The notes under the pieces: model-generated
Database searches by the model: none
The model's input: the letters and a program-made list of their open reading frames with translations, nothing else
What the model was told of the DNA's origin: nothing
Made by a program: the position numbers and the translations under genes
NCBI GenBank assembly: GCA_023374045.1
Contig: CM041781.1
Span: forward strand, 144,576,982 to 144,640,981
Direction: 5' to 3'
DNA length: 64,000 nucleotides
Source of the DNA: Limonium bicolor
Lineage: Eukaryota; Streptophyta; Magnoliopsida; Caryophyllales; Plumbaginaceae
In this document: one piece after another, positions 29,782 to 59,992 of the stretch
Layout: every line of letters starts with the position of its first letter
Numbering within the stretch: position 1 is the first letter of the stretch

Positions 29782-29796
29782 CACTACTAGAAAAAC

Positions 29797-32225: not shown

Positions 32226-32229
32226 GTCG

Positions 32230-33119
32230 ACGTAGAGGTAGCCGTTGCAGGAGAAGCGTAAAGCCTTTTCAGCCTTGGAATGAGAGGGAAGTACTGCATC
32301 TTCTTGAAAGGTACCTTACTTTTTCTCCTTTTTGTCCCCTCTTTGATGGGCTTGTATCTGGGACGAGTGCAAAACTTGCATACATCCAGATCTTTATCTT
32401 CTCTCCAGAAAATCATACATAGTTCGGAACAACAATCGATTTCTTCATAAGGTAACCCAAGACCACGTATGATTTTCTTTGCTTCGTAGAAGTTTTTTGG
32501 AATGTCAGTGTTTTCTGGACGGAGCTCGCAGTAGGTTTTGCAAACTCGATCAATCAATGCCTGAGGTGCTTGGTAGTCATTCTTAATGGACATTAATTCA
32601 GTGGCGATAGATAGTACACTATGATGCGTGCCACTGAATAACTTTCTTTTAGCATGTTCCATCAACTCATAAAATTTTTAGCATCAGGATTTGGAGTATC
32701 CTCTAGATCCTCTTCAACCTCCTCCATAAAATTAATTGTATCCCCGAATTCTTCTGGAACCTCACCAACAGCATGTGCAATCATTTGCTCTAACATTTCA
32801 ACATGTGGAACCTCATTAGGCGTAGTGCTTCTCGAGGTAGATTGTACGGGTGTGTTATCTTCTCCATGGAATATCCAATCAAGTAACCGTACATAAAACC
32901 TTTCTGTGCTAAATGAACCTTAACAACATCAGGCTTGAGATACTGTCTGTTTCTACACCTTGTCATGTCGCAAGGGCACTTAATTTTACCATCTTCCATA
33001 CATTCAGGGTGTTGTAGTGCAAAAGCGACAAACTCTTCCATCTTCCTCAGCCATTCGGCAGAGATTCTACCTCTCTCAAAGGTTCTCTCATCGTACATCC
33101 ACAATCTAGCGGGTCTCAT
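32230..33119 (-). pseudogene. CACTA TNP2-type transposase, N-terminal remnant
   Basis: The minus-strand frame 33119-32790 has the Transposase-associated domain: a W-MY start, then FV..A......DGKIKCPCDMTRC and a zinc-type Cys pattern, then GF..GY. A frameshift near 32670 leads to 32665-32144, which continues the family pattern LP.NFYEAKKI, a Cys-rich knuckle (C..LC....W......C.FC) and YFPLIPRLKRLYAS. Here the full-length protein should enter the catalytic TNP2 core (several hundred residues). Instead the sequence turns into Ser/Thr-rich low-complexity residues that are a shifted frame of the next gene. The catalytic core is therefore deleted. The upstream leader is a TTC-rich tract. Confidence 0.8.
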
Positions 33120-35328: not shown

Positions 35329-38300
35329 ACACTTTAGGAGATCAAGGTCAAAATAACCTTTATCACACATACCAAACAACATGTCATAGCATGTATATCA
35401 AACAGAAATACCTTTTCCATCTCTCCATGGGTTCGAATCCCACGTTGAGTACATATACACTGTGATCCCGCAACCCGGTCGCGATGGACACCTTCTGGTC
35501 CCCGTTCCTTTGGGAGATCAAAACATTCACTTAATTTTTAACATATGTACTTCTCATGTCACCGGTCCGAAGACAAAGGCTCATACGTCCTCAGCTCGTG
35601 AGCAAGTACTACAAAAATATTCTTTACTAGGTTAGTATAAGAAGGTCTTTTATTCAAAATATTAATCGATTGTTTGAAAACACCAATTGAAAATCCTTTT
35701 AAAAACACCACACAACTCCAAGTCCGATTTATGCTCTTTGTATCTTTCTTAACATAGTTATTTATGACCACTTATAGGGAGCTTCAAGAGTCATCCAACC
35801 CTGATGTGATCAGCATCAGTGTTGAACTATCTTTCCACCCCAATTTGTGTTCGGCTTCCCTTGATCTCATGATAATCAAGTTTCACCTCCCACTTCATTT
35901 TCAAGCATCGTATAAATCACTCATTTCCAATTTTCTATCTTTTAAATCATTCTAATCATGATCATAACATCTCCAAGGGATAGAACTCCGTCTATCAATC
36001 ATCACCCAAATCCAACTTAATTCAAGTTACCTAGGGAATTTAATTCTCACTAGGTTCTATGTCGGTCTCATAACCCTTCATAAATCACAACATTGTATAT
36101 ATATACATATTTTTTTATCAAAATACAATACATGGTTTACATTTATGCACCGTCGGGGTTTTAGTTCCCCGGGAGTTTCTTTACTCCCTTCCACTTGTAC
36201 TCTCACACACCACTATTAACAAAATAAACACACTTCCCACAATGGTATTCGCATCTTCTGTGCGCAATTACCACAATTTAACCACAAATAAATGCGTATG
36301 TTTATATAACACACGCACCAACCATCATAACAAATCATTTTGTGCTATGCACAACCCAGTTCACGTACACTTGTACGGTTGGTTTTGCGCTCTACCCCCC
36401 TTAAAAGGGATTACGCCCACGTAATCAATCACTAAACCTTGGCTTAAAATGTTCTGCCGTCGTGAAGTGTTTTGACTTCCACGCGGTCTATTACACAATG
36501 GATTCTGATTAGAGGATCTTAACCATATTGGCGGTTTAGTCCCTAAACCAAGAATTCGTATTGGAGTTGTAACTCATAACCGGTTCCGGTCCTGGCCTGT
36601 GGGGCTTTTAGGCATTGTTAACTAGCCATTTATTCATATTCACCATGTATATTCAGTATCTAGTGCATGGGCTCTCTGGCCCCTGTTGCGCAACTCTGAT
36701 AGTTGTAGAGCTAGTTTGCCCCACTCGTTACTGTTGTTGTATTGTACATCTCCAATGTATTACCCTTATCTAGGTAACAATGGTTTCTCAACCGACGCAT
36801 GGTATCTCTTACCCTGAGCGAATTCGGTGAGTTCCAAAACTTTCCATCCACTTCTCCAATAGCTTACTACGTAAACTGCACAATGTTTGACTTGCTTCTA
36901 CCGACTTATTGTCGGTTGAGATTGAGCTACTACCTAATGTGTAGTGCTCTCTCGGTTATTTCCCACACCTGAGGTATATTTCATACCGACATTTGGTATT
37001 CATTGCCACTGTTATCACTTATTCTTAATCATACCTCCTATCTGGTTTCGTACAAGTACTCTTCCATTGGTATGACCTTGCATTTCCTATGCATTGATCA
37101 TTATAGTACCATAGGTTTCTTTCTACATCCACCACAATTAACATTTCCCAAATCCTAGCTATCCCACTCGATCATTACTGCGCAAATGCAATACCAAAAC
37201 ACTCAGTCATACAGAGTGCAGAGGCGTAAACTCTTGACAGTAAATCTCTTATGCGATTGCAATAGGAGTTTACACTGTGTTTACTGGAATTCTTATCACA
37301 TATCACTTGCTTCCGGCTTACTGCTCGGTTCCTTTGCTATTACTTACCGTTGTACCTCCACTGGGGTTAACTCATAACTCTGCTCACTCACCATTTTATC
37401 ATCTAACTATACTCACACAACGGTCGCTTATTGCGCACCATATCCTTACTCATTATACAACATCAACTTATACTGCATCCGCTATTATATTAGCTTCCGC
37501 TATTACGCTGGGTTTATCTGGCCATTTATTTGGCTGATTTTTTTTGAATATACTACTATATTTTTTTGAGTCTTTATGTTCTTTGAGCGTTGTTCGTTAC
37601 TCATTTAGCATCACACACCTATGGTGGTCGCTATCAACTTATCTTTCTTCCTTTCTACACAACTGGTATAAGCACTTCTTTTCGTGTTACTTTATTCAAA
37701 TCACCCTGGGGTAATAACAACGTGGTCCATCCTCCACATATTTCTTGAACTTGATTCACATATCTACCGCTTCTGCGGTCTCACAATATCGAGAGGCATC
37801 CCCACTCTTAATGCAGTGGGTCGCTTACCACTTTATCCACTTATACAACATAAACTTCTACAATCAATCAAATTTATATAACATATCTTGATTATGGCTT
37901 ATAAGCCTTATTTGCCTTGAGCTGGGCTCATTGTAGGCTGTCCACACATATGTACTTCTCTGTACAACATTACATGTTTAGAGGTTGTAGTGGGCTCCAT
38001 GACAAGGTTGTTGCATTCCGTTTCCTTTCATGGGATGCCCCTTAGGTTTGTCAGTCCGTCTCCTGACAACTTATGTCTAAACTGGGTGTTAATTTCAACC
38101 CTTGTGTTTCTGTCATGTCATTTTGTGCAACAATTATTGATGTGAACACCCTTTAAGGATTGCTCCTGGGTGTTGCTACTGGTATATTCAGTTAGCCACG
38201 CCGTTTGCGTTCTTCACTGGTTATTATTTTCTTCTGTGAAGGTCGTCATTTCCTAATAATGTAGGTACTCATTCTGGGAATTTCATCCCGTTCATTGCAC

Positions 38301-39976: not shown

Positions 39977-39981
39977 CTTTT

Positions 39982-42900
39982 TGTAACACCCCAACCACCA
40001 CCGTACACTTAACATCAATCTGCAGCGGAAATCTCAACTCATCACATTACTTAATTCAATGGTGTTACACGCCGTTAACCACCCACGTGGCTAACAAGGC
40101 TAATACATATACATTTGTATCGGTCTGATGGACTGGATTCCCGAGCAACTACACAATACAATCCTCATTCCATTTTCAACATTTATTATATACATACATT
40201 CCCACTGTACCGAGTATTTACAAACTAATGCCGATAACAATTTCGGTCTTACTACGCTTACAATGCTTACGCCATTTAAATGGCTACCCATGTATAAACA
40301 TCTACCCCGTCCTACTCTCGAACGGCTTCCAGCTCCTTGTACCTGAAATAGAAAAGGAGAGAAAGGGTGGCCCCCAAGGGGCTCAGCACCTTTGCTGGTA
40401 TGGTAATCCCGCAGCCCACATGCTACCGGGCCACGCACAACTAATTGTCGTCTTAGCATGCAGTTGATTATATTTAAATCATGCATACAAGCCATAAACA
40501 TACAACACATAACATTTCGCCTCAATGGGCTCAACCTATAACCAACACATCCACACTTAACCAACCATTCAATGATTCCTTAAACCCTAGAGTGGCTCTC
40601 CTCTAAAACGGAGCTACTTCCTTAACGAACGACATGTACCCATTAATCGGGTTATCCTTAAACGCCTCTTGTCACAAACTGGGATTCATTTCCATGATCC
40701 ACACATCCCATATCCTACAACATAACTCATTCCACACATAACAAACCATAACAAAACCTTTCTTGTTTCGACGTACACATGACAACATCACCATCATTCT
40801 AAACACCTAACGTATACTTATCGTAGCATAGCAAGGGAATTTGCATAGCACAACACCAATACATAACACCGTAAATCGGTTCTCACAAGGAACCTTCCAC
40901 CATAGTTAGTATTCATAGTGAGCCTAGAGATTATTACCAATCCCATGTTAAGCTCGTTACCAACCTCGTTACCGTCCGGTTATATAGAACGGTTAACTTA
41001 TACCCAAGGTGTGTCGGATATAGTAATCCCAAGCACACCGAAATAACATTCGTATGCCCCTGTGGCCCGACGTGAGTCAGTAACTAGCTTTGGATAAGCT
41101 AAGGGAAGGTAGAAACCAAATTGGAATACCACCTATACATACACCAAGAGAGCCGAACCGGATATGACATCGACTCCCGTCCATCACACGCGTGGCCGGA
41201 ACAACCGGACTCCTCACCCCCATTAGTATATATACTTATAAATAAGTAGTTAGAGATCCATTATGGAGCCTACCACATCCACACACCATACGGTATCATG
41301 ACCGAGTTAAGCACACAAGGGAGGTTCACACACTTGCATATAACAACAATGTCCAACTAACTCACACATAGCCGTGGTTAGCACGTTCCCAAGGTTTGGG
41401 CCGTCAACTCCCCGAATACCGATCACTCATGTGTATCTAGATTTGGTTAGCTAAGGTTTAACACATATTTGAGGTTAAACGGTATCGGAGACCAGATGCG
41501 CCACATAAATGAATTACTATAAACTCATTACATGTTTTAATCTTACAAGGTGGCAACACTCATAAAAACACATTGGCATACAAGCCGGTGTAATCCGGTA
41601 GGACACAGGTTGCAAGAAAACCATACCTGTCGCCACGGTCCACTATATCATGTCCTTTTAGGTTCCTCGAACAAATCCCGTACAACTGGTAACATCACAA
41701 TTACTTTTATTAATATTGGGGTAACATGTTTGCTTAACGTTTAAAGCGCCACAGTTTACCCCGTCATTCCCGTTACACTTAACTTACTCTTGTGATATTA
41801 AGTTTACAACTCTCACATCAAACCCAACACTTGTTTACACATTTTAAGGCCTTTATATGCCACCAAACAAGGCCTAAACATCACCTAAAACCATTACCAT
41901 TCAATTCCCCATGATTAGAAGCCTTTAAAACAGATTTTGCAACACTTTTGACCTGGTCCGGGACTTGGTCCGGACCCAAGGTCCCGGACCACTTGTAGAA
42001 TGTTCTCTCGGCCTTATTTTACCCTTGGTCCGGGTCTTGGTCCTGGACTAAGGACCCGGACCACTTCTAAACTTCACTCTCGGCTCTTTTTAAGGGGTGG
42101 TCCGGGTACCTATGCAAGGGCTAGGTCCCGGACCATGTTATTAACTTGTCAAAACATCATTTTTAAACCCCTAAACCAACCTTAAACCTTACCTAATCAT
42201 TCCATAAACTTTCCACATGTTTCCTACATGTTTAAACACCTTAAAACAAGCACTAAACTTTCCTAAATCATCACTAACTGGTTACTCAATCCCTTACAAC
42301 AATTCCTAGCACTTATAACATTTTTCTTAGATTTCTAAGTGGTATATCATGCCTACTACCTTAACTAACCAAAGTGTTGTCTCACAAACTTTACCACCAC
42401 TCCAAAAGCATTATTTCTCACACACACCTCCTTTGCACAATTGCTTCTAATTTCCACAAGTTTTCACTTAGACCTTCACTAGGCATTTCTTTTCCTTTGT
42501 TTACCAAATCTTGAACAAGACTTAACACTTCACATAACAATTCCTTAGTGTGTTCAAAACACCCATTTGAGTTCTAAATCCTCCAAGACAATGCCCATGG
42601 CACTTTAACACCTAAGAACACCATGATTCACCTTCTTCCTCCATCTTAACACTTAACAAGTTCCTAGTACCTTCTAGGTCTTAAAATCTCATTTCATCAC
42701 ATAAACTCCTTTGTTTATCAACTAAATTTTGCCATAGCTTCTCTTGTAAACCCTCACACCCAAACACTTAGGTTTTCACCTTTAGACAACCAAGAACACT
42801 TAATCACTTAATACACATTCCTTACACACAAACATATTGTTTTTCATCCTTTAACCATTCAAGACATTCATCTTTACAAGAAATGCCCTCTACACACAAC

Positions 42901-44645
42901 TAAGCCTTTAACTACACTACATCACAATATAGTGCATAACTTAAATTGCTTGGCTCTTAGGCCCTTAAATGCATGGCTCTTAGGCCCTTAAATTGCATAA
43001 ATCTTAAACACTGAATTTCCCACATAAGTAATGCCTTTGACCTGCAATTACACACACCAAGACATATGTTCCTTTACTAGTCTCCTTGAGAACACCTTAC
43101 TAAGTCATTCACCATTTGCTCTTTAGGTAGTTTTTAACAAGCATTATAAGCTCATTTCTCCTAAGGCATTAAACCACATTGAGATAGCATATTTACCTCT
43201 TTTCCTCCCAAATTTCTTTCTTGTTTCCTTACAAAACCGGTAAGGCATTTGGTTCCTTGCCAACTACTAAACATTATACAAACAACATAATGAGTATTCA
43301 AGCTTTAAGCTCCATCTCATTGTAAACCCTAGGTTTACATTATTTCAAAACATTAATGTAGTTGTTTTACCTTAATCTTTGAAGGGTGTTTGAATATCTA
43401 TGAAGAGAGGACTCCACCTAGTCCTTGAAAGATTCAAATGGAGCTAGAACAAAGCAACACAAGGAGCTCCATCAATGAATATTTTCGGTCACACACAAAA
43501 CATGGAGGAAACTTGATTTTTCTTTGAGATTCCTTACCTAGAAGCAAAGGAGAGTAATAATGTGTAGAAACACAAGCTCAAGCTCCATCAATGGTGATTC
43601 TCCATGGCACCAAAATTGAGCTCTTGGAGATTTGAAAAGGTAGAAGTGTAGAGCTTGACCTAACTAAGACAAATATGGTCTTAGAATTTGATTTGGAGCA
43701 TGGAGTTGGATTTGGCAAGGAAATGAAGATGGAGAAGAGAGGAGCTGTAGCAAGTCGTAAATGGAGGAAGGGAGGAGATGAAGAAACCGTGTGAAATGAG
43801 AGAAGAGAAGGAAATGAGAAAGTAAGTTTGCTTTTGGAGATATTTATGTTATAAAGCAAAATAGTACTTTACTTAGTCATTCTTTCTTTTCTTAGTAAAC
43901 TAACAAGGGTGGTGAGTCACCACACCTTAAAAACCGGCCCCAAATAGTACCTAGGGGTATTTTAGACTTTATTAATCAATTGTCTCACTTATAGTAACAT
44001 ATGTTACAAACTAGCTTATAAAAATCACTATTCACCAAAAACAAGGCACATAGAAGTGAAATTTTTTATTTCCCATTGATACAGCCACCCAAATGTGATA
44101 CTATATAGTACACATGTTAATTAAAGAGTAATGATGGACATTTAGCCATTCAAACCTCATTTACAAGACAATTTTTCAAAAACGTGCTTTAAGACTCCTT
44201 AAAGCACATTTTGTGTTTTAACTTGTTTTAAAGCTTGGTTTTCTTTGGTAAATGATTTAATATGTTCATTAACATATTTATAAGGTATAGGTATGACCAT
44301 TAGGTCTTTTACAAATTTATCCCAAGCTTAGAGCACATTTTTGCTCTTATTGACTTTAAGGTATTTATTTGTGTTTTGTTTGGTTTCATTGTCTACCAAA
44401 GTTTCCTAAGGACTTAATTAGCCTTATAAAGTCATAATTAAATATTATCAAGTCTTGGTAGGCTCTTTGAGTCCTAGCCAAGTTCACTCCAACCTTAGAG
44501 CATGTTTTTGCTCAAACCGTGTCTTAATGTTTTATTGCGCTTTACTATGGTTTAAATTGTACATTTATTGTTTCTAAGGCACTTTTTAGCCTTTAAATAC
44601 CATAGTTTAACATTTACACAACATACCAAGGTTTGGGGTATTTCA
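39982..44645 (-). repeat. Middle LTR of C
   Basis: 4664 bp. It has PBS-side interior on its left and a PPT on its right, so it serves as 5' LTR of unit 1 and 3' LTR of unit 2. Confidence 0.88.
41955..42134. repeat. LTR hairpin array of C (middle copy)
   Basis: Three units matching 26768-26950. Confidence 0.85.
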
Positions 44646-47095
44646 ATCTACCCCCCTTAAAAGAACTTCGTCCTCGAAGTTCACCTTTCCTCGCATCATT
44701 GGATTAGAATACGGGAATTACTTATAGCCATAAAACTTCCATTACCAACCACCCTTTACATCAAACCTCGGACTTAATGGTCCGGGCAACATATCCACAT
44801 TATACATAAAATATCATACTCACATGGTAACCTCGGACTTAATGGTCCGGGTACCTTCACCACACTCGCACCTATACAATATCCCTCAGACTCTTAGGTC
44901 TGGGTGACATAACCACATTTGGACTCGTAGGCCCGGGTAACACAACACATTTAGACTCATAGGTCTTGATAGCATACACTTTAGGAGATCAAGGTCAAAA
45001 TAACCTTTATCACACATACCAAACAACATGTCATAGCATGTATATCAAACAGAAATACCTTTTCCATCTCTCCATGGGTTCGAATCCCACGTTGAGTACA
45101 TATACACTGTGATCCCGCAGAACCCGGTCGCGATGGACACCTTCTGGTCCCCGTTCCTTTGGGAGATCAAAACATTCACTTAATTTTTAACATATGTACT
45201 TCTCATGTCACCGGTCCGAAGACAAAGGCTCATACGTCCTCAGCTCGTGAGCAAGTACTACAAAAATATTCTTTACTAGGTTAAGTATAAGAAGGTCTTT
45301 TATTCAAAATATTAATCGATTGTTTGAAAACACCAATTGAAAATCCTTTTAAAAACACCACACAACTCCAAGTCCGATTTATGCTCTTTGTATCTTTCTT
45401 AACATAGTTATTTATGACCACTTATAGGGAGCTTCAAGAGTCATCCAACCCTGATGTGATCAGCATCAGTGTTGAACTATCTTTCCACCCCAATTTGTGT
45501 TCGGCTTCCCTTGATCTCATGATAATCAAGTTTCACCTCCCACTTCATTTTCAAGCATCGTATAAATCACTCATTTCCAATTTTCTATCTTTTAAATCAT
45601 TCTAATCATGATCATAACATCTCCAAGGGATAGAACTCCGTCTATCAATCATCACCCAAATCCAACTTAATTCAAGTTACCTAGGGAATTTAATTCTCAC
45701 GAGGTTCTATGTCGGTCTCATAACCCTTCATAAATCACAACATTGTATATATATACATATATTTTTTATCAAAATACAATACATGGTTTACATTTATGCA
45801 CCGTCGGGGTTTTAGTTCCCCGGGAGTTTCTTTACTCCCTTCCACTTGTACTCTCACACACTACTATTAACAAAATAAACACACTTCCCACAATGGTATT
45901 CGCATCTTCTGTGCGCAATTACCACAATTTAACCACAAATAAATGCGTATGTTTATATAACACACGCACCAACCATCATAACAAATCATTTTGTGCTATG
46001 CACAACCCAGTTCACGTACACTTGTACGGTTGGTTTTGCGCTCTACCCCCCTTAAAAGGGATTACGCCCACGTAATCAATCACTAAACCTTGGCTTAAAA
46101 TGTTCTGCCGTCGTGAAGTGTTTTGACTTCCACGCGGTCTATTACACAATGGATTCTGATTAGAGGATCTTAACCATATTGGCGGTTAGTCCCTAAACCA
46201 AGAATTCGTATTGGAGTTGTAACTCATAACCGGTTCCGGTCCTGGCCTGTGGGGCTTTTAGGCATTGTTAACTAGCCATTTATTCATATTCACCATGTAT
46301 ATTCAGTATCTAGTGCATGGGCTCTCTGGCCCCTGTTGCGCAACTCTGATAGTTGTAGAGCTAGTTTGCCCCACTCGTTACTGTTGTTGTATTGTACATC
46401 TCCAATGTATTACCCTTATCTAGGTAACAATGGTTTCTCAACCGACGCATGGTATCTCTTACCCTGAGCGAATTCGGTGAGTTCCAAAACTTTCCATCCA
46501 CTTCTCCAATAGCTTACTACGTAAACTGCACAATGTTTGACTTGCTTCTACCGACTTATTGTCGGTTGAGATTGAGCTACTACCTAATGTGTAGTGCTCT
46601 CTCGGTTATTTCCCACACCTGAGGTATATTTCATACCGACATTTGGTATTCATTGCCACTGTTATCACTTATTCTTAATCATACCTCCATATCTGGTTTC
46701 GTACAAGTACTCTTCCATTGGTATGACCTTGCATTTCCTATGCATTGATCATTATAGTACCATAGGTTTCTTTCTACATCCACCACAATTAACATTTCCC
46801 AAATCCTAGCTATCCCACTCGATCATTACTGCGCAAATGCAATACCAAAACACTCAGTCATACAGAGTGCAGAGGCGTAAACTCTTGACAGTAAATCTCT
46901 TATGCGATTGCAATAGGAGTTTACACTGTGTTTACTGGAATTCTTATCACATATCACTTGCTTCCGGCTTACTGCTCGGTTCCTTTACTATTACTTACCG
47001 TTGTACCTCCACTGGGGTTAACTCATAACTCTGCTCACTCACCATTTTATCATCTAACTATACTCACACAACGGTCGCTTATTGCGCACCATATC
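44646..47095 (-). other. Interior of C unit 2, truncated by element E
   Basis: PPT at 44646-44662, hairpin at 44663-44682, tandem repeats at 44762-44975, then the uninterrupted CACTA target at about 44973. It follows unit 1 closely until 47095, where E's LTR begins. The last 5 bp (ATATC) are E's expected target duplication. Confidence 0.85.
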
Positions 47096-50000
47096 TGAAA
47101 TACCCCAAATCTAAATAATATTATTAAATCATTATTTATTGGAATATAATCCAAACATAAATCAGTTCACGTACGCATGCAAACCCATGCATGAAAACGT
47201 TACGTAAAAATAGTCGTTTCACCATAAACGCTAAAACGCCTTAGAAACATGTGATCAAGCATGACCTTGTATGACCTTCTAAAACTCAAACCAAATGGTC
47301 ATACACTCATCATATGAATATATAAATATATTCCCTAAGCTATATTCAGTCAAATACGCAAAACGCTCGGGAGTGCTCACGCGCGCCCCTTAAAGCAAGA
47401 AAAGCTCGGAGGAGTGCCGAGGTGGCACGAACTCCTATAAAATTAATTCCTAGAGTTCCTAATATCATTATTTACCATTCTAAAGATAACCCACGAAGTG
47501 GTTCATCAAAATTCAACAAAAACCACAGGAGGATTTCTTAACGCTCCTTTTTGCCCGGGTGTGTCCCGATGGCCCGTAAATTATGTCATGGGTTGATATA
47601 ACCTCATATAACCCAATGTAACATCTTAATATATGTTTAATTACTATAATAAGTGTTTACAAACACTTGGAACTCATAAAAACAATTTGTTTCCCAAAAT
47701 TTCCTTAGAGCACAAAAACACACCTTCGGGTGTCACGAAAACGCGTTTTACGCAATTGCCTTGTAGTTTTTGACATACCACGAATTGGTAATATTAAAAA
47801 GGGTTAAAATGACCTTCTAAATCAGTTGGTGTGACTAGTCAACAAGACTCTCTATAGGGGCCGATTTTGAGAGCAAAAACTAGTATAAAAATTGCATTAA
47901 AAGTTTATAAAAAGCATAGAACATGGTGACTCACCTTCCCATGTGTTATATTACTTAATGTCTAAGTATGTAGGTCTCATTTGACCAGCAAGCTGTCGAA
48001 ATTAGGCCATGGAATAAGGCCATGTGAGCTAGAACAAAAACAAATGAGAAAAAGTAAAAGTGGATCTAGAATTCACTTTTCTAGATTCCTTCTTTTCCAT
48101 GTGACCTAACATGCTTGTCCTTGGCTCTTCAATGTCAATTAAGACACCCCATTTGACCCTTGAATTCGTGACTCTACAAGGGAGGAAGAAGACAAGCCTA
48201 ACTTAGAAAAATCAAAAGAATAACTTACCTAAATTACCTTGTCTTCTAGCTCACAATCATCTTCTTTCCAACTCTTGCCTTGTCACACACCACATGTCCG
48301 AAATTATTCAGAGAACATGGGCATTTATTGAGCCAATAAACCATGTAATAAACTAAGGAAAAAGTATAGTCATTTGACATTAAAAATTAACAAAACAAAA
48401 ATCAAATTCTAAGGCACTCTCTTACCTTATACGTAAGTTTAGTGTCATTTCCCCTCTTGCACTCCACACCTACGAATTTGGTAAGCTCTCTCCTCTCTCT
48501 TCTAAGCTTCATCTTCTTCCTTTGAAGCTCTTAAGTCCATTAATGGAGATGTAACTTCTATCTTCATCTTTAAGGTAATTTCTTAGCAATTCTTGTCAAG
48601 CCTTGAAGCAAAACTCTTCCTAGCTTAACAACAAGTGTTCGACATCAATTAGTTCTCCAAGGAGGTTGTCCAAACCAACATTAAACCAAGGAGCATCTCA
48701 AGGTTATCTTAAGGTAGTTTTAATGCTTGTAAATCCTTAAAGCACATTTTTATGTGTAACCAAGTTCTACTTCTTCTAAGGTTCTTTCCTTCTTCATTTT
48801 CATGAAGGAAACCTTGTTCTTCATCAACCTTAGGAGTGCCGAATTCATAAGGAGAAAAGTCTAAGGTAAACTCTTGTAAAAATACTTACAAATCTACTTA
48901 AGATCTTTATTCAAGATCTAACTCCTAAAACTCCTTCACCACTTGCATAACCGAAGTGGAGCATCTATATTACCTTGGAGAAAGCTTGGAGATTCAAGAA
49001 GAAGTTCAAGCACTTAACCACCTTGTTAAGAAGTAAGTTTACTATATAAATCTTTATATTATAAGCTTTGTTAAGCTTCTAAAAATTGTACAAAAATTAT
49101 GTACACCTCCTAGGTTTATTAATACCGAAATTATATGGTTTTATATGCCAAAAATATAAACTATAACATATATAGAAAATATTTACCTTAAGACACATTT
49201 TTGTGTCACAAAATTCATTTATGTTACAAATAAATTTAGGCCGAAAAGTCTTAGGCAAAAATGCTTTATTTTGAGCTTAGAATTTATATAAGACATTACA
49301 ATAATTTATACATGAGTTATATGACTCCTATGAATTTATTTATAATTACTTAGACATATAAATCCACTTTTATATAACATAAGGTCTCATTTAAATTATG
49401 GCCGAATGTTCTACTTGATAAATAAGTTTTAATGGGCTACTTAGGTATATAAATTTATATCATAAAGTTTGGTGAGTTAAAAATATTCTTTTAGTGTCTA
49501 AATGACTAATTAATTAAGTTATGTGGATTAAATGTAATTTTTACAAAGTTTAGTGTACTTATATTAAAAACCGAGAGCTAAAGGGCTGTTTGGTGTAATT
49601 ATAATATAATATAAGGTTAGGAATTAAGTTTAAGAATTTTAGATAATTTAAACAAGCTTTGAAATAACTTTTTATAAAGTTTTGGGCTATTATGTAATTT
49701 ATAAAAGTTGTTATGAAAGTTTATAATTTATTAGTGGGCGAATTCATAATTAAGAGAATTATTAGGTTCACTTTCGAAATTTTAAGGGATTAAATATTTA
49801 GACTATAGTTTATAAGTTATTAAGTAACTAATAGAAAGTTTTGGGGTGAAAATGTAATTAATGGAAAGTTCAAGACCAAAGCCGAATTCTTTGGGGTTAG
49901 TTTGGTAATTTAGGAATTTATAAATATATATTCGGCATTTATGGAGAATTAAAATTAAAACTATAGTTTACATGACATTGTGAAAAAAATTATAAGATTT

Positions 50001-51939
50001 TGTGGTTAGATTGTAATTATAAGAAATAAATTATTAAAGCCGAGAATTTAAGGGGCTAAGTTGTAATTTTTGAGAGTTATAATATTTAAAAGCTATATAC
50101 CAAAATATTAGGGATGGCTTTGCAATTTAGCTAAATAAGAAGTTAAAACTCTATAATATAAAGAGATTAGAATTTAAGAGTAAAGTTTATGAATTAATGT
50201 GGTTGTTTTGTAAATAACCGAAATACAAGTTTAAGAATTTAGATTTAAATAAATATAGATCCTATAAGGATATTTGGAGGATTTAGAAGAAAGAATTTTG
50301 ATTAAAGGAATTATGGAATTAAAACTATGGCTTACATGGTTATAAGGAATTAAAAGATAAACAATAAATATTATTTATGGTTAAAAAGGAGAATAATAAA
50401 ACTATAAGAATTTTATGTCTATGTATGACATATAAATATAGTTAAGAAATTATAAGTGGTTATGTCACCTAGACAAATAAAATAAACAACAAATGCAATA
50501 AACACATATATGTGCATTAAAGGATTTATAAATCAAAAGGAATAACAAATAAGTTATACATTAAATCATGAGGTAATTAAAAGAAATAAACCTCACATGA
50601 AATAACAAATACGAGATTTGTTGAAAGATCCAATAAGATCATTATATAAGGGTAACAAAAATTAACCCTCTCAGTTAATCCTATTCTAGGACTTTGTTTG
50701 ACCAGACGTTGACCGGGAATTAAACGAGTACAGTCTACGGTGAACGGTATGGGATTCTTGCAACCTGTTTTCTAACGGATTACACCGGCTTGTGTGCTAT
50801 CTGTTGTTTGAAATAACGACCAAGATAATTAATGTAAAATGTGTTTTACTTGTGCACTGTTGTATTATTTCATGTGCGTGATTGTTGCTGACTACAACGG
50901 TATGCCCACGCATACAAAAAACTACTATACAGTGGATTAAATACCTGCGTTTCAGTTTATACCGAGGACTTGTACTCAAGTCTCTCACTAACTTCACTTT
51001 ATAACAAACGTCATTATCCTAAACGTGATAATTGACAATACACATTGTGTTTTGTTTAACGTCTTTATATGACACTTAACAATATATACTTCGAGAATGA
51101 GGAGCCCAGTTGGATCTGGCCATGCATGCTACGGGAGTTGTACCTGTCTCAGGTCGTCTCCTACTACGTCGCGACGGAACATTCAGTTGGGAGGAAGACT
51201 ATTCCTTCCGGGATTCAAATGCCCTTCAGTTCGAGGAAGACTTTATTCCTCTAGTGGGTTCTTATTTCCCACGCCATTCAGTTCAGGGTTTAACTACGTT
51301 ATCTCCTGGGGTTTTTATACCCAACCTTTCTATAACGAGGTCACTATACCTCCACTATTTCAGATATTCAGTTATAACGTCAGTCCCATTGTGTGGACCG
51401 ACTATCAGTAAAGAATTTCAGTTCAGCTAACTCGACCTTCTGTGTCTTGTTCTATGTGACATTATTGTCCTTGTATGGATACTTGTTATTATCAGACTAT
51501 GCTTGTTTACAGCTTTATAAAAATGAACTGCATGTGTTCGACAAAGTAGTTGGTGTGGCCCGGTAGACGATGGGCTGCACGTTTTCCATACCAGCATTGT
51601 TTGCTGAGCCCCTTTGGGGGCACCCCCATTTTTCAGGTACCTGAAGTTGAGAGATCACCACACTGAGTGTAGGTGGGGTAGACCAAGCTTTGGGAGTCTA
51701 CTATTAGTTAATTGTTTATTTCAGTATTTACTTTGAGTTTGATTCCTAGTATCTCGGGTTGTATCTGTATTCCAGACCGTGACATTTGAGGATTGTATTT
51801 GGACTTAGCCTTGTTGGTCACAAGGGTGGCCAACGGCATTGTAATACCGCCCGGTTGTTGTATTTATTTCCGCTGCAGTTGTATTTTATTTGGGAGTGAT
51901 CGCCGTTCAGTTTATTGGATTTCGGGTTGGGGTATTACA
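47096..51939 (+). repeat. 5' LTR of element E
   Basis: Starts TGAAATACCCC and ends GGGTATTACA. 49000-50650 is AT-rich with no feature I can name. The blocks at 50741-50800 and 51550-51645 match LTR blocks of A, B and C. Overlapping short frames at 51069-51430 show no domain and I do not call them. Confidence 0.92.
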
Positions 51940-51943
51940 AAAA

Positions 51944-51955
51944 TGGTATCAGAGC
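51944..51955 (+). other. Primer binding site of element E
   Basis: TGGTATCAGAGC, 4 bp after the LTR. It overlaps a hairpin with perfect 9 bp arms CAGAGCGTA and TACGCTCTG (51950-51969, loop GT). Confidence 0.92.
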
Positions 51956-52116: not shown

Positions 52117-52812
52117 ATGTCAGGAAGAGGAGGACGACGTGGACAGGCTGATGAGGAGCCAAACATCAGGCTGGCAGACATTGCCACCTTAATTGCTCAG
52201 GCATTTGCACAGGCGGGGGTTGCACAGCAGCAGCAGTACCTCCACCACCACCACCCAGGGAGAGACTGGGTGAAGAGTTTGGCTGATCTGAGGCCACTGC
52301 ATTCAAGGGGCAGACTGACCCTGCTCACTTAGAACCTACATCATGGAGATGGAGACAGCGTTCGAGACGCTTGCAGTCCCAGCTAGGGAAAAAGTAAGAC
52401 TTGCTGCCTTTTATCTGAAGGATGCAGCTAGAGATTGGTGGAACATGGTGAAAGCCGACCACCTGGATGACCCAGCTTTTACTTGGGGACATTACACTGC
52501 ATACTTAGGGGCAAATACTACCCGGCCCACACCAGGATGGTGAAGACTCGGGAGTTTGACGCCTTGGAGCAGACGGGGAAGATGTCAGTGGATGAGTACT
52601 ATGCGAAGTTCACTTCGCTACTCAGACTATTACCCGGCATAGGATACTCGGACCAGGTGTTGGTCGACCGATTCTACGGGGGACTGAGCCCTCGACTTCA
52701 GTTTGGGATGGGACCAATCATCCCCACCAGTTTGCAGGTAAAACAGGAGGACATAAATCAGTTGGAAATCTTATTACATACTATACCCCATCATGGGAGA
52801 TTTGGAGATTAA
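52117..52812 (+). pseudogene. gag: Gag, matrix/capsid part (frameshifted)
   Basis: The ATG at 52117 opens a frame with a basic start and Gln and His runs, which stops at 52332. The capsid domain continues in another frame from 52343 (AAFYLKDAARDWW, the Retrotrans_gag hallmark) and returns to the first frame by about 52507, ending at 52812 after VDEYYAKFTSLLRLLPG. Two single-base shifts therefore split a domain that is otherwise well kept. Gag forms the virus-like particle that packages element RNA. Because the LTRs are nearly identical, the shifts may be assembly errors. Confidence 0.82.
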
Positions 52813-52830
52813 TATCTTGAGATTTCAGGA

Positions 52831-53109
52831 ATGCTACCATGCTGCTCCGTAGTGGAGATCACTTGTAAGAGAAGGGATGCTTTGAGCTCCCAAAAGAGGA
52901 AGGACGGACCTGGTGGCGAAGATGCCAAGCAGGGGAACTCCAACAAAAGAAACAAACCCTATCAGAAAGGACAGGGGTCCTATCAAGGGAAAGGGAACCA
53001 AACTACTGGGAACCCCCAGTCAGGAACCTACGGAGTGCAACTTCACAGAAAACCTACCCACCTAAGGGTAGGCACTCTAATCAAACAGTTAAATTTGAGA
53101 CTTTTGTGA
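52831..53109 (+). pseudogene. Gag linker, Lys/Gly/Gln-rich
   Basis: Basic low-complexity frame (KRKDGPGGEDAKQG and similar) typical of the Gag stretch between capsid and zinc knuckles. It ends at a stop before the nucleocapsid frame. Confidence 0.6.
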
Positions 53110-53136
53110 TTACTTCAGCACCGTTAGAATGAATAA

Positions 53137-53538
53137 TTGACCTTGATTGTATTAGGTTCTGGATCTGGCTCAAACACGGGCCAGAAGTATATCCGTTTCA
53201 ACTGTAAACAGTGCGGGAAGGATCACCCCGGCGTGGACTGCCAGGGGGAGAAAGTCATGTGCCGCTACTGTCAGATACTCGGGCATCGTGCCTTCGAGTG
53301 TATCCGAAACCCGGAGAGCAGGAACTACCGCCCGGGAGCAAAGCCAAACCCAGGCCAAAAGAATGGAGCTAGCGATACTCGCCCTCCACCAACAAACCAA
53401 ACTCAGGGGTACAAGGGCAAAGGCCCAGCATCGGGACCCGCCCTGCATGTCATGGACCGCTCAGATGAGGCTGGTCCTTCTACTAACCCAGGTATTTCTA
53501 AACCGTGTGAACCTATTATCGAGCAATGGATGATGTGA
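53137..53538 (+). CDS. Gag nucleocapsid, two zinc knuckles
   Basis: Contains C23-x2-C26-x3-H30-x4-C35 and C42-x2-C45-x4-H50-x4-C55, counted from the ATG at 53137. The second is the canonical CX2CX4HX4C knuckle, and the first is one residue short. These bind nucleic acid during packaging. The knuckles are followed by a Gly/Pro/Lys-rich stretch. The frame runs through a possible splice donor at 53491/53492 and stops at 53538, so unspliced RNA would give Gag ending here. The real Gag start is upstream, and the ATG at 53137 is only a frame landmark. Confidence 0.85.
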   Translation: MTLIVLGSGSGSNTGQKYIRFNCKQCGKDHPGVDCQGEKVMCRYCQILGHRAFECIRNPESRNYRPGAKPNPGQKNGASDTRPPPTNQTQGYKGKGPASGPALHVMDRSDEAGPSTNPGISKPCEPIIEQWMM

Positions 53539-54470
53539 ATGAGTGCTTGCATGCCTTGATTGCCTAATTGAGTAGGAGAATTAGTAAGACTCACTAGTAA
53601 AATTTAAACCACGTAGGAAGCTATAAGATATGCTTTCCTATCCCCTCACCGCCCGCCCTCCCTGGAAGAAAACATTATCAAATACAAGAACCAGGGAACG
53701 AACAATGTAAGGTTATCCAACCAGGTTGATACTACTCAAAGGATACCTAACACCGGAGACACAAATTGCAATCATCAGAAATGTCAAGAATTGGGAGCAG
53801 GACCAGGAGGGTTCTACACTCCAGAATTTCCAGGAGGATCAAAAATGAAGCTGAAAATGATGTGCTTAGGAAAGGATTGGAATCCTTACACAAAAACCTA
53901 CCAAGATACAAGAAATGGAGATGGAGCACAAGTACCAAAAATCCCAGAAGAATTTTTACCAATTGTGGAACAAGCAGTTAATACAGCTCAACAGCTAGAA
54001 GAATCCAGTTCCCAATCTAAGGGCTGATCTAATCATCAACTTCTATGAAGAAGGAGGCCGTTTAGGACTACACCAGGACAATGATGAAACAAAAGGGTCC
54101 CTTGAACAGGGAATACCAGTATTATCTTTGTCAATTGGAGATGACGCAGAGTTCCTTTATGGCGAGCAGAAGCGTGTGGACCTTGCAAAGAAAATCATAT
54201 TGAGTTCAGGAGATGTTTTAATAATGGGTGGAAAGTCAAGGTTGCTATACCATGGAATTAAAAGGATTAAGCTAAACACAGCACCTTCGACAGTGATAAA
54301 CACCACTCACATGAGACCAGGAAGATTAAGTTTGACTTTAGAAAGTATAGTGTTGTAATTGTTTTGGACTTCAGAAAGGAGATCATCTCATCAATGAAGC
54401 ATTATTGTTGAAAGTGAATGTCTTTAGACCCCATCATGTATCAAAGTACTTACTCAGATTCTGTTATTAG
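53492..54470 (+). other. GT-AG segment between gag and protease (possible intron)
   Basis: 979 bp from CCCAG|GTATTT to CTGTTATTAG|GT. Removing it joins the Gag nucleocapsid codon CCA-G to GT-TGT-GCT, the open frame of the protease, with no stop in between. The segment includes the Gag stop and the whole AlkB-like region. Seen: the borders and the phase. Inferred: that splicing happens. In the related Ogre elements an intron between protease and RT is known to be spliced, so the idea has a precedent. Confidence 0.55.
53617..54411 (+). pseudogene. AlkB-like Fe(II)/2-oxoglutarate dioxygenase carried by the retrotransposon
   Basis: Open frame 53617-54027 includes GPGGFYTP and MMCLGKDWNP, typical of the AlkB/ALKBH1 branch. 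One base shift near 54020 leads to frame 54026-54358 with INFYEEGGRLGLHQDND (metal ligands H at 54071 and D at 54077), GDVLIMGGKSRLLYHG (second His at 54251) and RPGRLSLT (Arg at 54323). One missing base at about 54337 hides the final conserved Phe-Arg. The domain spans its usual length and has no introns. AlkB enzymes remove methyl groups from DNA or RNA bases. A 2-oxoglutarate-contacting Asn in the usual RxNLTFR is Ser here. It lies in sense between gag and protease. Family membership is secure. Activity is unknown. Confidence 0.85.
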
Positions 54471-54472
54471 GT

Positions 54473-55195
54473 TGTGCTAAGGAGACGGAAGGTGCCTTAA
54501 GTATACTTACTGAGGAGGAGGCCAGCAAGGGCGGCGCGATCCTCACTGGTACCTTTCCGGTTAATGGAGTGGATGCATTAGTACTGTTCGACTCCGGAGC
54601 CTCACATACTTTCGTTTCGCCTACGCTTGCGGGGAAGTTGGGGCTAGACGCAGTAGAGTTACCTGATTTTAAGGTGGCACTCCCGTCTAAGGAGAAGATC
54701 AGTTGCACTCGTCTTTATAGGGGAGCCACTATCAGTATTAAGGAGGAGGAATTTCCTATTGACCTTATTGAGTTCAGAGGTCTAGGATTCGACGTTATAG
54801 CCGGGATGGACTGGCTGGGGCGGCACAGAGGCCGCATTCTTTGTGCAGAGCGCAGACTGTTGCTTAAGAGCCCATCAGGAGTGACAGTATCTTACCGTCA
54901 GAGCCCTAGGGCACCATCGATAAAAGTTATATCTGCTATGTCCATGTACAAGCACGTCAGGAAGCAGAAGGAGGTATATCTATGTTATGTTCAGAATGTA
55001 GAGCATGACCCTGATTTTGATCCAGCTATGCCAGTGGTGTCGGAATTTCCAGATATTTTTCCAAAGGAACTTCCAGGCTTACCGCCATCCAGAGAGGTAG
55101 AGTTCTCCATCGAATTACTACCAGGTACCGGTCCCATAGCTAAGGCACCGTACCGTATGGCACCAGCAGAGATGGCTGAGTTGAAAGAGCAGTGA
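54473..55195 (+). CDS. Aspartic protease and start of reverse transcriptase
   Basis: The frame is open from the possible splice acceptor at 54470. The protease active site is [10 protein letters not shown] (near 54584), followed by [11 protein letters not shown], the usual second landmark of Ty3/gypsy proteases. A linker leads to [14 protein letters not shown] and [14 protein letters not shown], the entry to RT. The frame then breaks at 55195. The protease cuts the Gag-Pol polyprotein in the particle. No nearby ATG fits, which is expected if it is made only as a fusion with Gag. Confidence 0.88.
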
Positions 55196-55749
55196 AAGAT
55201 TTATTGACAAGGGATACATACGACCTAGCGTATCTCCTTGGGGAGCACCAGTGCTTTTTGTGAAAAAGAAGGATGGAAGCCTTCGTTTTGCATCGATTAC
55301 AGAGAGCTTAATGCAGTGTCGGTGAAGAACAAATATCCACTACCACGGATTGATGATTTGTTTGATCAGTTGAGAGGAGCAAAAGTGTTTTCGAAGATCG
55401 ATTTGAGATCAGGCTACCATCAGATACCCATCAGGGAGCAAGACATAGAAAAGACAGCCTTCAGAACACGGTATGGCCACTATGAGTTTACGTTATGCCT
55501 TTTGGCTTGTCAAATGCACCTGCAGTCTTCATGGATTTGATGAACAGATTATTCAGAGAGCAGTTGGATAAGACCGTGGTTGTATTCATCGATGACATCC
55601 TATCTATCAAAGTCTAAAGAAGCATGAGAGTCACCTCCGACATTACTTGAGATCTAAGGGAGAACCAGCTTTATGCTAAGTTCTCCAAATGTGAGTTTTG
55701 GTTACAGAGTTTCCTTTCTAGGACATGTTTCTCAGATGCTGGGATCGCA
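55196..55749 (+). pseudogene. Reverse transcriptase core (several frameshifts)
   Basis: [19 protein letters not shown] and [12 protein letters not shown] are clear RT motifs in the frame 55238-55540. After a shift near 55495 another frame reads [12 protein letters not shown] and VVVFIDDI (55582-55599), the catalytic double Asp in the F-I-D-D form common in this clade. Further breaks occur between about 55600 and 55745. At least four shifts lie in 550 bp, making this the most damaged part of E. RT copies element RNA to DNA inside the particle. Confidence 0.85.
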
Positions 55750-56892
55750 GTGGATCCAGCAAAGATAGAAGCAGTTCGCACTTGGCCTAGGCCAAAGACA
55801 GTTACGGACATCAGGAGTTTCCTTGGTTTAGCAGGATACTACAGAAGGTTTGTCAGAGACTTCTCCAAAATAGCCAAACCTATGACCAGCTTAATGAAGA
55901 AGGACGCACCTTTCACATGGACTACTGAATGTGAGACCTCATTCGAGCTTCTGAAGAATGCCTTGACATCAGCACCAGTTTTGACTATACCTGAAGGCAC
56001 AGAGGGTTATGAAGTTTACTGTGATGCATCAGGTAGGGGATTAGGGTGTGTACTCATGCAGAATGGGAAGGTAGTCGCCTACGCTTCCCGACAGTTGAAG
56101 AAACATGAGGAAAACTATCCCACACATGACTTGGAGCTTGGAGCTATTGTTTTTGCCTTGAAGATCTGGCGCCACTACCTGTATGGTGTCCAGATGACCG
56201 TATATTCGGATCATAAGAGTTTGAAATATGTATTCACCCAGAAGGAGTTAAACATGAGACAAAGAAGATGGGTTGAATTTCTTAAGGATTATGACATTGA
56301 TTTGCAGTACAAGGAAGGGAAAGCTAATGTTTTAGCAGACGCATTGAGTCGACGAGCGTATTCTCTTAATGCCATTGTGGCTAGCTCGAGTCTTATGGAC
56401 GACATACGCAGAGCACAACAGAGTGATCAGCGAATAATGGAGATCAGTCAGAAGTTGACTGACGGTACATTTGAGGGTGGAAAGTATGAGTTCCAGTTAC
56501 ATGATGATGGACTCATCAGATTGAAGGGAAGATTGTGTATTCCCAGAGACAGCACAGATATAAAGGAGCATATTCTTCGAGAGTCCCACACTTCTACCAC
56601 ATCTGTCCATCCAGGAGCTTCTAAGATGTACAAAGATCTAAAGAGGTATTTCTGGTGGAGTGGTATGAAGGGCGACGTGACAGAGTATGTGATTCGATGT
56701 CTCACTTGTCAGAAAGTGAAATTCGAACATAGACGACCTGGAGGTATGGTACAGTCTATGCCAGTTCCAGAGTGGAAGTTTTATGATATCTCCATGGACT
56801 TCGTGGTGGGACTACCACCTACGAGAGGAGGCCTAAACATGATTTGGGTTGTTGTTGACCGACTGACTAAGTTGCTAGGTTTATTCCGATGA
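55750..56892 (+). CDS. RT end, RNase H and integrase N-terminal part
   Basis: 380 codons. Residues 1-60 are the RT thumb-side segment ([17 protein letters not shown]). RNase H spans about 85-205 with acidic residues D92 (YCDASG), E129 (THDLEL), D154 (SDHKSL) and D197 (ADALSR). The integrase zinc motif is H280, H287, C317, C320. The first catalytic Asp of integrase is D350 (DISMDF). A one-base shift near 56875 ends the frame, and integrase continues at 56889. The ATG at 55750 is only a frame landmark, because the protein is part of Gag-Pol. Confidence 0.93.
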
Positions 56893-57836
56893 AGGATACT
56901 TGGAAAGTGCCAAAGTTAGCAGAGCTATTTGAGAAAGAGATTATCAGACATCATGGAGTTCCAAAGACTATTGTTTCAGATCGAGATACTAGATTTCTCT
57001 CACGATACTGGCGAGCTACTCGCGAGGCACTTGGCACTGAGTTGAAGCTTAGCACAGCATTTCATCCTCAGACAGATGGTCAGTCAGAGAGGACTATTCA
57101 GACCTTAGAGGACATGCTACGAGCATGTGCCTTGGATTTTCAGGGCAGCTGGATAGATAGATTACATCTCATCGAGTTTGCTTACAATAACAGCTATCAC
57201 GCCTCTATACAGATGTCACCTTTTCAGGCTTTATATGGCAGACCATGCCGCACACCTTTATGCTGGGACGAGTCTAGTGAGACCGTCATCATTGGGCCTG
57301 AGTACTTGGAGCAAGTCCAGGCAGAAGTTCAGCAGATCAGAAACAATATGAAAGCAGCACAGGACAGACAGAAATCATATGCTGATGAGAGGCGACGAGA
57401 CCTTGAGTTCGCAGTTGGCGACCAGGTATTTCTACGAGTTTCACCCATGAAGGGTGTATTCAGATTTGGTCAGAAGGGCAAGCTAAGCCCGAAATTTGTA
57501 GGACCCTACGCTATCATAGAGCGGGTGGGCCTAGTGGCATATCGACTTGATTTGCCAGCCGAGTTGGGCAAAGTACACAATGTTTTTCACGTGTCTCAGC
57601 TTAAGAAATACATGCCTCATCCTTCTCATGTTCTACAACCAGAGACACTCTCTTTAGAACCAACAATGCGGTATGTGGAAACACCGCAAAGAATCTTAGA
57701 TAGGAAGACACGAGAGACTCGAAACAAGTCTGTGAGCCTCGTGAAGGTTCTTTGGTCGAACCACGATGTGGAAGAGGCCACATGGGAACTCGAAGCTGAT
57801 ATGCGAGCGAAGTTTCCCTCATTATTTACCGACTAG
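56889..57836 (+). CDS. Integrase catalytic core, GPY motif and chromodomain-like tail
   Basis: 315 codons. Catalytic D31 (IVSDRD) and E67 ([12 protein letters not shown]) complete the DDE triad with D350 of the preceding frame. GPY is at 205-207. The tail at about 266-313 ([16 protein letters not shown]) matches the degenerate chromodomain of Tekay/Del chromoviruses, thought to steer insertion to heterochromatin by reading histone marks. This agrees with E lying inside other repeats. The frame ends at 57836, before the 3' repeats. Confidence 0.93.
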
Positions 57837-57933
57837 GCACTTTAGTCTAGGGTACGGGGGCGTACCCCTTCTTTTTGGGGGGTAGAGCCTTTTTCATTTT
57901 TGAGTTTAGTGTGCACTTTGTTGCATTTGTTGC

Positions 57934-58068
57934 TTTTGTGCATTTCAGTTGTTGCACTTTTGTGCATTTCAGTTGTTGCACTTTTGTGCATTTCAGTTGT
58001 TGCACTTTTGTGCATTTCAGTTGTTGCACTTTTGTGCATTTCAGTTGTTGCACTTTTGTGCATTTCAG
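57934..58068 (+). repeat. 24 bp tandem repeat in the 3' untranslated part of E
   Basis: Five full units and a partial sixth, starting 57934, 57958, 57982, 58006, 58030 and 58054. Each unit holds TGCACTTTTGTGCA, a small palindrome, across its boundary. Because 24 is a multiple of 3, all frames stay open, which explains the repetitive reading frames on both strands. Confidence 0.95.
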
Positions 58069-58392
58069 TGACACCTTGTCTTGTATGTGTTCTTGTGTAA
58101 CACTGTGTTTGAATGTACCTTGTACTTCTACTTGATTGTGTGTACTTCATTACACTACAATGGAAATATTATATGCACTACGTTGCACCATTTGAAATGA
58201 AAAGTGATTGTGTTCACTGCCTTGCTTTACACTGCAAGTATATGTTATGACATTCCAAGTATTTCTGTTGTACTCGATATACACTATGAACTTAGGGATA
58301 TAGAGACTTGGGACTTGATCCCTAAAAATTAGATTGAGTTGTGGATACTTAGTGGAACTTGATTCCCCCACAACCTTATACTTTAAATATGA

Positions 58393-58410: not shown

Positions 58411-58429
58411 TTTTTTAAGGGGGGTAGAT
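58411..58429 (+). other. Polypurine tract of E
   Basis: TTTTTTAAGGGGGGTAGAT ends at the 3' LTR start (58430). Confidence 0.9.
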
Positions 58430-59492
58430 TGAAATACCCCAAATCTAAATAATATTATTAAATCATTATTTATTGGAATATAATCCAAACATAAATCAGT
58501 TCACGTACGCATGCAAACCCATGCATGAAAACGTTACGTAAAAATAGTCGTTTCACCATAAACGCTAAAACGCCTTAGAAACATGTGATCAAGCATGACC
58601 TTGTATGACCTTCTAAAACTCAAACCAAATGGTCATACACTCATCATATGAATATATAAATATATTCCCTAAGCTATATTCAGTCAAATACGCAAAACGC
58701 TCGGGAGTGCTCACGCGCGCCCCTTAAAGCAAGAAAAGCTCGGAGGAGTGCCGAGGTGGCACGAACTCCTATAAAATTAATTCCTAGAGTTCCTAATATC
58801 ATTATTTACCATTCTAAAGATAACCCACGAAGTGGTTCATCAAAATTCAACAAAAACCACAGGAGGATTTCTTACGCTCCTTTTTGCCCGGGTGTGTCCC
58901 GATGGCCCGTAAATTATGTCATGGGTTGATATAACCTCATATAACCCAATGTAACATCTTAATATATGTTTAATTACTATAATAAGTGTTTACAAACACT
59001 TGGAACTCATAAAAACAATTTGTTTCCCAAAATTTCCTTAGAGCACAAAAACACACCTTCGGGTGTCACGAAAACGTGTTTTACGCAATTGCCTTGTAGT
59101 TTTTGACATACCACGAATTGGTAATATTAAAAAGGGTTAAAATGACCTTCTAAATCAGTTGGTGTGACTAGTCAACAAGACTCTCTATAGGGGCCGATTT
59201 TGAGAGCAAAAACTAGTATAAAAATTGCATTAAAAGTTTATAAAAAGCATAGAACATGGTGACTCACCTTCCCATGTGTTATATTACTTAATGTCTAAGT
59301 ATGTAGGTCTCATTTGACCAGCAAGCTGTCGAAATTAGGCCATGGAATAAGGCCATGTGAGCTAGAACAAAAACAAATGAGAAAAAGTAAAAAGTGGATC
59401 TAGAATTCACTTTTCTAGATTCCTTCTTTTCCATGTGACCTAACATGCTTGTCCTTGGCTCTTCAATGTCAATTAAGACACCCCATTTGACC
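58430..59492 (+). repeat. 3' LTR of E, cut by the gap
   Basis: The first 1063 bp match 47096 onward almost exactly. The remaining 3.8 kb is missing. Confidence 0.92.
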
Positions 59493-59992
59493 NNNNNNNN
59501 NNNNNNNNNNNNNNNNNNNNNNNNNNNNNNNNNNNNNNNNNNNNNNNNNNNNNNNNNNNNNNNNNNNNNNNNNNNNNNNNNNNNNNNNNNNNNNNNNNNN
59601 NNNNNNNNNNNNNNNNNNNNNNNNNNNNNNNNNNNNNNNNNNNNNNNNNNNNNNNNNNNNNNNNNNNNNNNNNNNNNNNNNNNNNNNNNNNNNNNNNNNN
59701 NNNNNNNNNNNNNNNNNNNNNNNNNNNNNNNNNNNNNNNNNNNNNNNNNNNNNNNNNNNNNNNNNNNNNNNNNNNNNNNNNNNNNNNNNNNNNNNNNNNN
59801 NNNNNNNNNNNNNNNNNNNNNNNNNNNNNNNNNNNNNNNNNNNNNNNNNNNNNNNNNNNNNNNNNNNNNNNNNNNNNNNNNNNNNNNNNNNNNNNNNNNN
59901 NNNNNNNNNNNNNNNNNNNNNNNNNNNNNNNNNNNNNNNNNNNNNNNNNNNNNNNNNNNNNNNNNNNNNNNNNNNNNNNNNNNNNNNNNNNN
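59493..59992. other. Scaffold gap, 500 N
   Basis: Exactly 500 N. Sequence on the right is not the continuation of E's LTR nor of C unit 2, so an unknown length is missing or the join is wrong. Confidence 0.98.

Follow-up and report, generated by a model that had tools for sequence, protein, structure and literature searches.

Results

A Ty3/gypsy element with an AlkB segment between gag and protease

The window, by which we mean the whole 64-kb stretch of DNA analysed, contains a single Ty3/gypsy element of the AlkB-bearing kind on the plus strand; every gag, AlkB and pol query led to this one locus. The element has an LTR pair, a primer binding site, a polypurine tract and the order gag-protease-RT-RNase H-integrase, with the primer binding site and polypurine tract identified by eye and the 3′ LTR partly visible. 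Its features are as follows.

47096-51939, plus strand: 5′ LTR, 4844 bp, TGAAATACCCC...GGGGTATTACA
51944-51955, plus strand: primer binding site TGGTATCAGAGC, shortly 3′ of the 5′ LTR
52319-53535, plus strand: gag (by Pfam), the capsid part in two frames and then an ORF with a CCHC zinc knuckle
53492-54470, plus strand: inserted cassette and candidate GT-AG intron, 979 nt, placed by splice-site scores, frame and GC content
53601-54358, plus strand: predicted AlkB (ALKBH1-type) coding sequence, with four frame changes as assembled
54471-55195, plus strand: aspartic protease and start of the RT region (pol), Pfam RVP_2 E = 9.2e-26
55196-57836, plus strand: RT, RNase H, integrase and C-terminal chromodomain, holding most of the approximately eight frame changes of pol
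58417-58429, plus strand: polypurine tract, by eye, adjoining the 3′ LTR
58430-59492, plus strand: 3′ LTR, first 1063 bp, ended by an N gap (59493-59992)

Within gag, Pfam returned a Retrotrans_gag match at 52471-52809 (E = 4.1e-10) and a second at 52319-52543 that was below the cut-off (1.3e-3), together with a zf-CCHC match, also below the cut-off (0.026), in the zinc-knuckle ORF at 53137-53535. The protease ORF spans 54428-55192, and pol further matched RVT_1 (4.4e-10), RT_RNaseH (1.2e-34) and Integrase_H2C2 (1.2e-17). At the C-terminal end of the integrase, a Chromo match (E = 2.1e-5) reached 24.8 bits, marginally below the cut-off of 25.1. Judged by its sequence, the element is probably a chromodomain Ty3/gypsy of the Tekay/Del-like kind; the Tekay label is one that we assume from motif likeness, and the primer binding site is presumably of the tRNA-Met type. 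When the integrase was searched against 8000 scored candidates, the nearest among the best 120 was P0080 (89%), and the readable names among these 120 were eudicots, a hint of a eudicot host.

The preliminary description placed LTR sequence on both sides of the element, and this is what is found, at 47096-51939 and again from 58430 up to the N gap. Over 1063 bp the LTR pair differs by one mismatch and two single-base indels. An empty site is also present: a near-identical duplicate without the element lies at 35329-37444, and the match stops at 37444 and 47095. The insertion of the element is recent. The gap that cuts the 3′ LTR consists of 500 Ns (59493-59992); beyond it come matches to other repeats in the window, with at most short matches to the remaining LTR. 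A tandem array with a 24-bp unit (57909-58093) separates the integrase stop from the 3′ LTR.

The AlkB segment resembles plant ALKBH1

The AlkB segment is in sense orientation, flanked by the gag zinc-knuckle ORF on its 5′ side and the protease ORF on its 3′ side. Homology extends from approximately 53601 (weakly from 53544) to approximately 54345, and PF13532 was matched by two pieces, at 53617-54024 (E = 2.8e-6; 28.1 bits, under the 31.2 cut-off) and at 53999-54355 (the C piece; E = 7.3e-30). The best solved relative of both pieces was 5xeg (E = 3.8e-22, and 1.1e-37 for the C piece), named a 2OG-Fe oxygenase in the search answer and which we take to be rice ALKBH1. For the C piece it was followed by E. 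coli AlkB (1.9e-16) and then by human ALKBH1 (from 1.6e-10), and no chain named ALKBH5 was present among the 21 sequences matched. Database relatives of the segment include rows named ALKBH1C/1D-like, and by its structure matches and named relatives the domain is classified as ALKBH1-type. Against the NCBIfam cut-offs for bacterial AlkB equivalogs, 267 and 231 bits, the C piece scored far lower, at 82.1 and 79.3 bits respectively.

These PF13532 and 5xeg matches, with the order of the ORFs, agree with the earlier claim of AlkB homology in sense between gag and protease, and the search against AlkB families that had been suggested there returned the same two matches, with the ALKBH1 type given by the named relatives. 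The limits first proposed, 53617-54411, are the ends of frame-1 ORFs and not of the domain. Nor is there one intact domain ORF: as assembled, the homology switches frame four times, near 53726, 53779, 54001 and 54340 (our own reading of the translations).

The window copy retains the Asn, Tyr, HxD, second His and first 2OG Arg. Of the residues listed in the preliminary description, HxD and the second His are upheld, and the first Arg of RxxxxxR is in frame. The last Arg of this motif falls outside the main C-terminal frame. The neighbouring frame at this position reads FRKY, the same as in relatives. Among the six closest relatives (described below), the first Arg is present in five (P0004 ends earlier) and the second, by eye, in four (P0002 and P0004 end earlier). 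An AlphaFold model of one of them, P0201, gave a pLDDT of 85.2 and a pTM of 0.82.

Frame breaks in the element and indels in the window

Frame changes are not confined to AlkB. By eye, pol has approximately eight in 3366 nt and gag has at least one more, and the density in AlkB (4 in 758 nt) does not significantly exceed the pol value (p = 0.25, from hand counts). Across four duplicated pairs in the window, 33 indel events were counted versus 19 mismatches, which suggests residual indel errors of the assembly. Because this excess resembles that of a noisy long-read assembly, the frame breaks cannot be read as decay; those in AlkB may be assembly noise or may be natural indels. The same excess calls for cautious reading of frame breaks anywhere in the window.

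Taken at face value, frame changes in both AlkB and pol alongside near-identical LTRs would imply recent movement of a defective copy, helped in trans. This would fit a capture that was family-wide but no longer works, with AlkB having spread as a passenger whose protein is not made. We consider this improbable, since the breaks may be unreal given the 33 indels against 19 mismatches, and since the constraint test reported below argues against it.

The insert limits lie near candidate splice sites

Within a search zone of 52319-55195, a low-GC block was placed at 53494-54480 with a gain of 14.9 log units, compared to at most 8.8 in 20 block shuffles (run on a coarser grid); its limits are wide (start 53440-53839, end 54411-54534). 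The GC content of 53492-54470 is 0.396, versus 0.558 before it and 0.497 after it. The inserted segment is better given as approximately 53492-54470 than as 53617-54411.

Splice-site scores, calculated with assumed weights, single out sites close to these limits. The donor CAG|GTATTT at 53492, located at the left limit of the block, is the strongest of 20 in 53137-53540 and in the top 0.43% of the 3511 plus-strand GTs. The acceptor TTATTAG at 54470 is in the top 4.25% of 3294 AGs; it is the strongest of 13 AGs in the zone of the pol frame (54428-54570) and the second of 21 in 54359-54600, where the AG at 54374 outscores it (2.81 vs 1.74). Removing the candidate intron 53492-54470 places gag and pol in the same frame. 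By itself this says little, because 78 of 260 donor-acceptor pairs tested are frame-compatible; what carries weight is that score, frame and GC limits agree with one another. In unspliced RNA, pol would be hard to reach, because gag ends at 53538 and the pol frame has no ATG between 54428 and the protease.

These features are consistent with a cassette that is perhaps alternatively spliced. The donor at 53492 and the acceptor at 54470 would bound the insert as usable splice sites, such that spliced RNA would encode a Gag-Pol fusion, while in RNA that retains the intron Gag would stop at 53538 and the AlkB reading frame would be present. A splice from gag to AlkB at the acceptor 53616 (frame-compatible, score 0.31) is also possible on sequence grounds; two other compatible acceptors score higher (0.99 and 1.68) but lie within the AlkB homology. 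Stop readthrough from AlkB into pol is ruled out by three stops in the shared frame (54356-54427).

The manner of insertion bears on a second alternative, in which the mRNA of a host ALKBH1-type gene of divergent lineage was copied once into a single copy of the element and survives as a pseudogene. One copy in the window and four frame changes are what such a one-off retrocopy would leave. However, the segment ends close to splice sites that preserve the gag-pol frame, which is against it, as is the frame-change density, which does not stand out from that of pol. No A-run of 6 or more was found in 53490-54560, and no flanking repeat exceeded the shuffle level (the longest shared word was 7, a length attained or exceeded in 444 of 500 shuffles); both results count against a retrocopy, and a LINE-made processed pseudogene is not favoured by them. 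We regard the retrocopy as unlikely, and return to it with the tree.

That AlkB and the element were wrongly joined in assembly is very improbable. The assembly does show signs of noise and the window has N gaps at 10621-11120 and 59493-59992, but the nearer gap is 5 kb off, AlkB is in sense within a continuous element, and its limits are near sites that keep gag and pol in frame.

Relatives form a separate clade

Of 115 candidates in a search with the C piece, 79 had E values of 1e-10 or lower; the best four (P0001-P0004) showed 65-73% identity and the remaining 75 showed 37-61%. In a profile search, 8000 candidates were scored and 3608 passed; the top six among the best 120 of these 3608 were P0003, P0200, P0201, P0004, P0001 and P0002. 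The six relatives used here are the four from the C-piece search and two (P0200, P0201) from the profile search, on contigs of 0.8-26.6 kb, with P0004, P0001 and P0002 being partial. Scans of viral contigs with three queries (AlkB C piece, protease region, integrase) yielded no relative.

The tree comprised 123 rows, made up of the window C piece, 11 of the 79 C-piece hits and 111 new rows from the profile search. The window C piece and the six relatives grouped as one clade versus the 116 other rows (SH-aLRT 100, stem 0.84), in what is a quick tree where the window row covers 37% of columns and the long stem is possibly misplaced. The named members of the other 116 rows are flowering plants, with no named fern or conifer row among them.

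All six clade relatives read through the sequence GLH-QD. Among the 79 C-piece hits, 32 start or lose homology just before QD, 20 read through (P0001-P0004 included; two of the 20 were re-read by eye) and 27 have no pattern match. We read the break before QD as a host intron at this point; breaks in 32 of 79 hits, with a clade that reads through, fit an intron-free origin. Because annotated proteins and transcripts read through too, the argument rests on P0002, P0004, P0200 and P0201, whose contigs are 10-27 kb. The homology of P0201 to the window extends to 53544, six bases beyond the gag stop, in a weak stretch (40 bits) that contains stops. The clade relatives are presumably element-borne, and they may instead be host retrogenes.

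To look for constraint on protein changes, the window was compared with the residue on which P0200 and P0004 agree (or that of P0200 where it alone is present), with columns counted as conserved at a level of at least 90% in 109 host rows. The window differs at 5 of 69 conserved columns versus 26 of 83 others (Fisher p = 2.2e-4), and at 3 of 67 versus 24 of 81 once the out-of-frame tail is removed by hand (p = 7e-5). Five pairs of relatives lean the same way, with p from 0.02 to 7e-11. This pattern suggests that selection acted on the AlkB protein for much of the time that it has evolved separately, whether within the element or as a host gene.

For the retrocopy, these results cut both ways. 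Constraint would also be expected of a sequence that had long been a host gene, and the end branch of the window copy is long (0.51); against this, intron-free relatives exist, at 61-78% identity to P0004. Neutral decay in a single copy had been named in the preliminary description as a contrary outcome: one copy is indeed all that the window holds, but the clade of relatives and the constraint on the protein speak against a mere decayed passenger.

Discussion

Taken together, we think it probable that a chromodomain Ty3/gypsy element acquired an intron-free coding sequence of ALKBH1 type, placed between gag and protease, and has retained it as an accessory gene. We count against this explanation the single AlkB copy in the window, the four breaks, relatives that are perhaps host retrogenes, and NCBIfam scores far below their cut-offs. 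By inference, the cassette would be spliced and translated, and the enzyme would be active and of benefit to the element. Such an enzyme would demethylate single-stranded nucleic acid, at adenine or at other bases and in either the element or the host, its likeliest targets being single-stranded cDNA, R-loop DNA and genomic RNA, and in this way might protect the RNA or cDNA of the element. We put forward a more specific version only with reserve, and hold it to be doubtful: that the enzyme is a DNA-preferring adenine demethylase of ALKBH1 type in a chromovirus gag-pol intron, where splice choice sets the dose of Pol and demethylase, and that it protects single-stranded cDNA or R-loop DNA.

Plant ALKBH1 is the best sequence match to the window AlkB and has the same catalytic residues, whereas the window AlkB belongs to a separate long-stem clade, lies inside a retrotransposon, and has relatives that read through the presumed host intron point. 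Rice ALKBH1 demethylates 6mA in single-stranded or R-loop DNA, according to the part of that report available to us (PMC10469495).

Capture, as already advanced in the preliminary description, is the best reading of an intron-free ALKBH1-type sequence in a Ty3/gypsy element. The window element appears to combine a chromodomain, a primer binding site presumably of the tRNA-Met type, and an ALKBH1-type AlkB placed between gag and protease. Capture as such has an orchid precedent from 2022, and the comparisons that follow draw on the accessible part of that paper (PMC9289625). In 121 angiosperm genomes, Alvarado-Marchena and colleagues report a 2-ODD/AlkB domain only in Phalaenopsis elements (Gypsy_Pa_2799), which group next to Ogre and whose ALKBH5-like ORF2 has m6A demethylase activity in vitro (PMC9289625). 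Both cases unite a plant Ty3/gypsy element with a domain of the AlkB superfamily (PF13532), and use of the demethylase by the element is proposed in both (PMC9289625). In contrast, the orchid elements are of the Ogre/Tat type, with a tRNA-Arg primer binding site, dual RNase H, gag-pol in one ORF and a separate, ALKBH5-like ORF2 (PMC9289625). By its chromodomain, ALKBH1-type match and AlkB placement, the window element falls outside the orchid AlkB-Ogre group. We read it as a second, separate AlkB capture, apparently differing from the first in element lineage, AlkB branch and position. Among the literature matches listed, judged by titles and the openings of abstracts, no other AlkB-bearing LTR retrotransposon was found beyond this paper and those citing it. 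A 2025 review, in its available part, covers the orchid case and the link between ALKBH9B and ONSEN (PMC12786077). AlkB domains also occur in plant RNA viruses, likened here by description (PMC9289625, in part) and likewise selfish genomes that replicate through RNA.

The splicing that we propose has parallels. Splicing of a putative gag-pol intron in Ogre is thought to set Gag versus Pol (PMC9289625), and spliced Gag RNA does so for the output of BARE (PMC3735527). A coding cassette inside the intron is particular to our proposal; none is described for either element in the accessible parts of these two papers (PMC9289625, PMC3735527).

If true, two separate captures of different AlkB branches by different element lineages would suggest that plant retrotransposons repeatedly come under pressure from nucleic-acid methylation. 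An enzyme of the ALKBH1 type would direct attention to adenine methylation of DNA, or to cDNA, beyond the RNA m6A of the orchid case, and it would be uncommon for an accessory gene to be expressed from a coding cassette within a gag-pol intron.

Surroundings of the element

Upstream, the window contains a direct duplicate of approximately 7.1 kb at 99.2-99.6% identity (24795-29785 and 35329-37444 versus 39981-47095), the first copy of which is interrupted by 5.5 kb. The duplicate resembles a pair of LTRs from another large element, into which the AlkB element would have inserted. Inside the 5.5-kb interruption lie two minus-strand ORFs (199 and 173 aa; 30330-32665) that, on visual inspection, resemble those of a CACTA-type DNA transposon.
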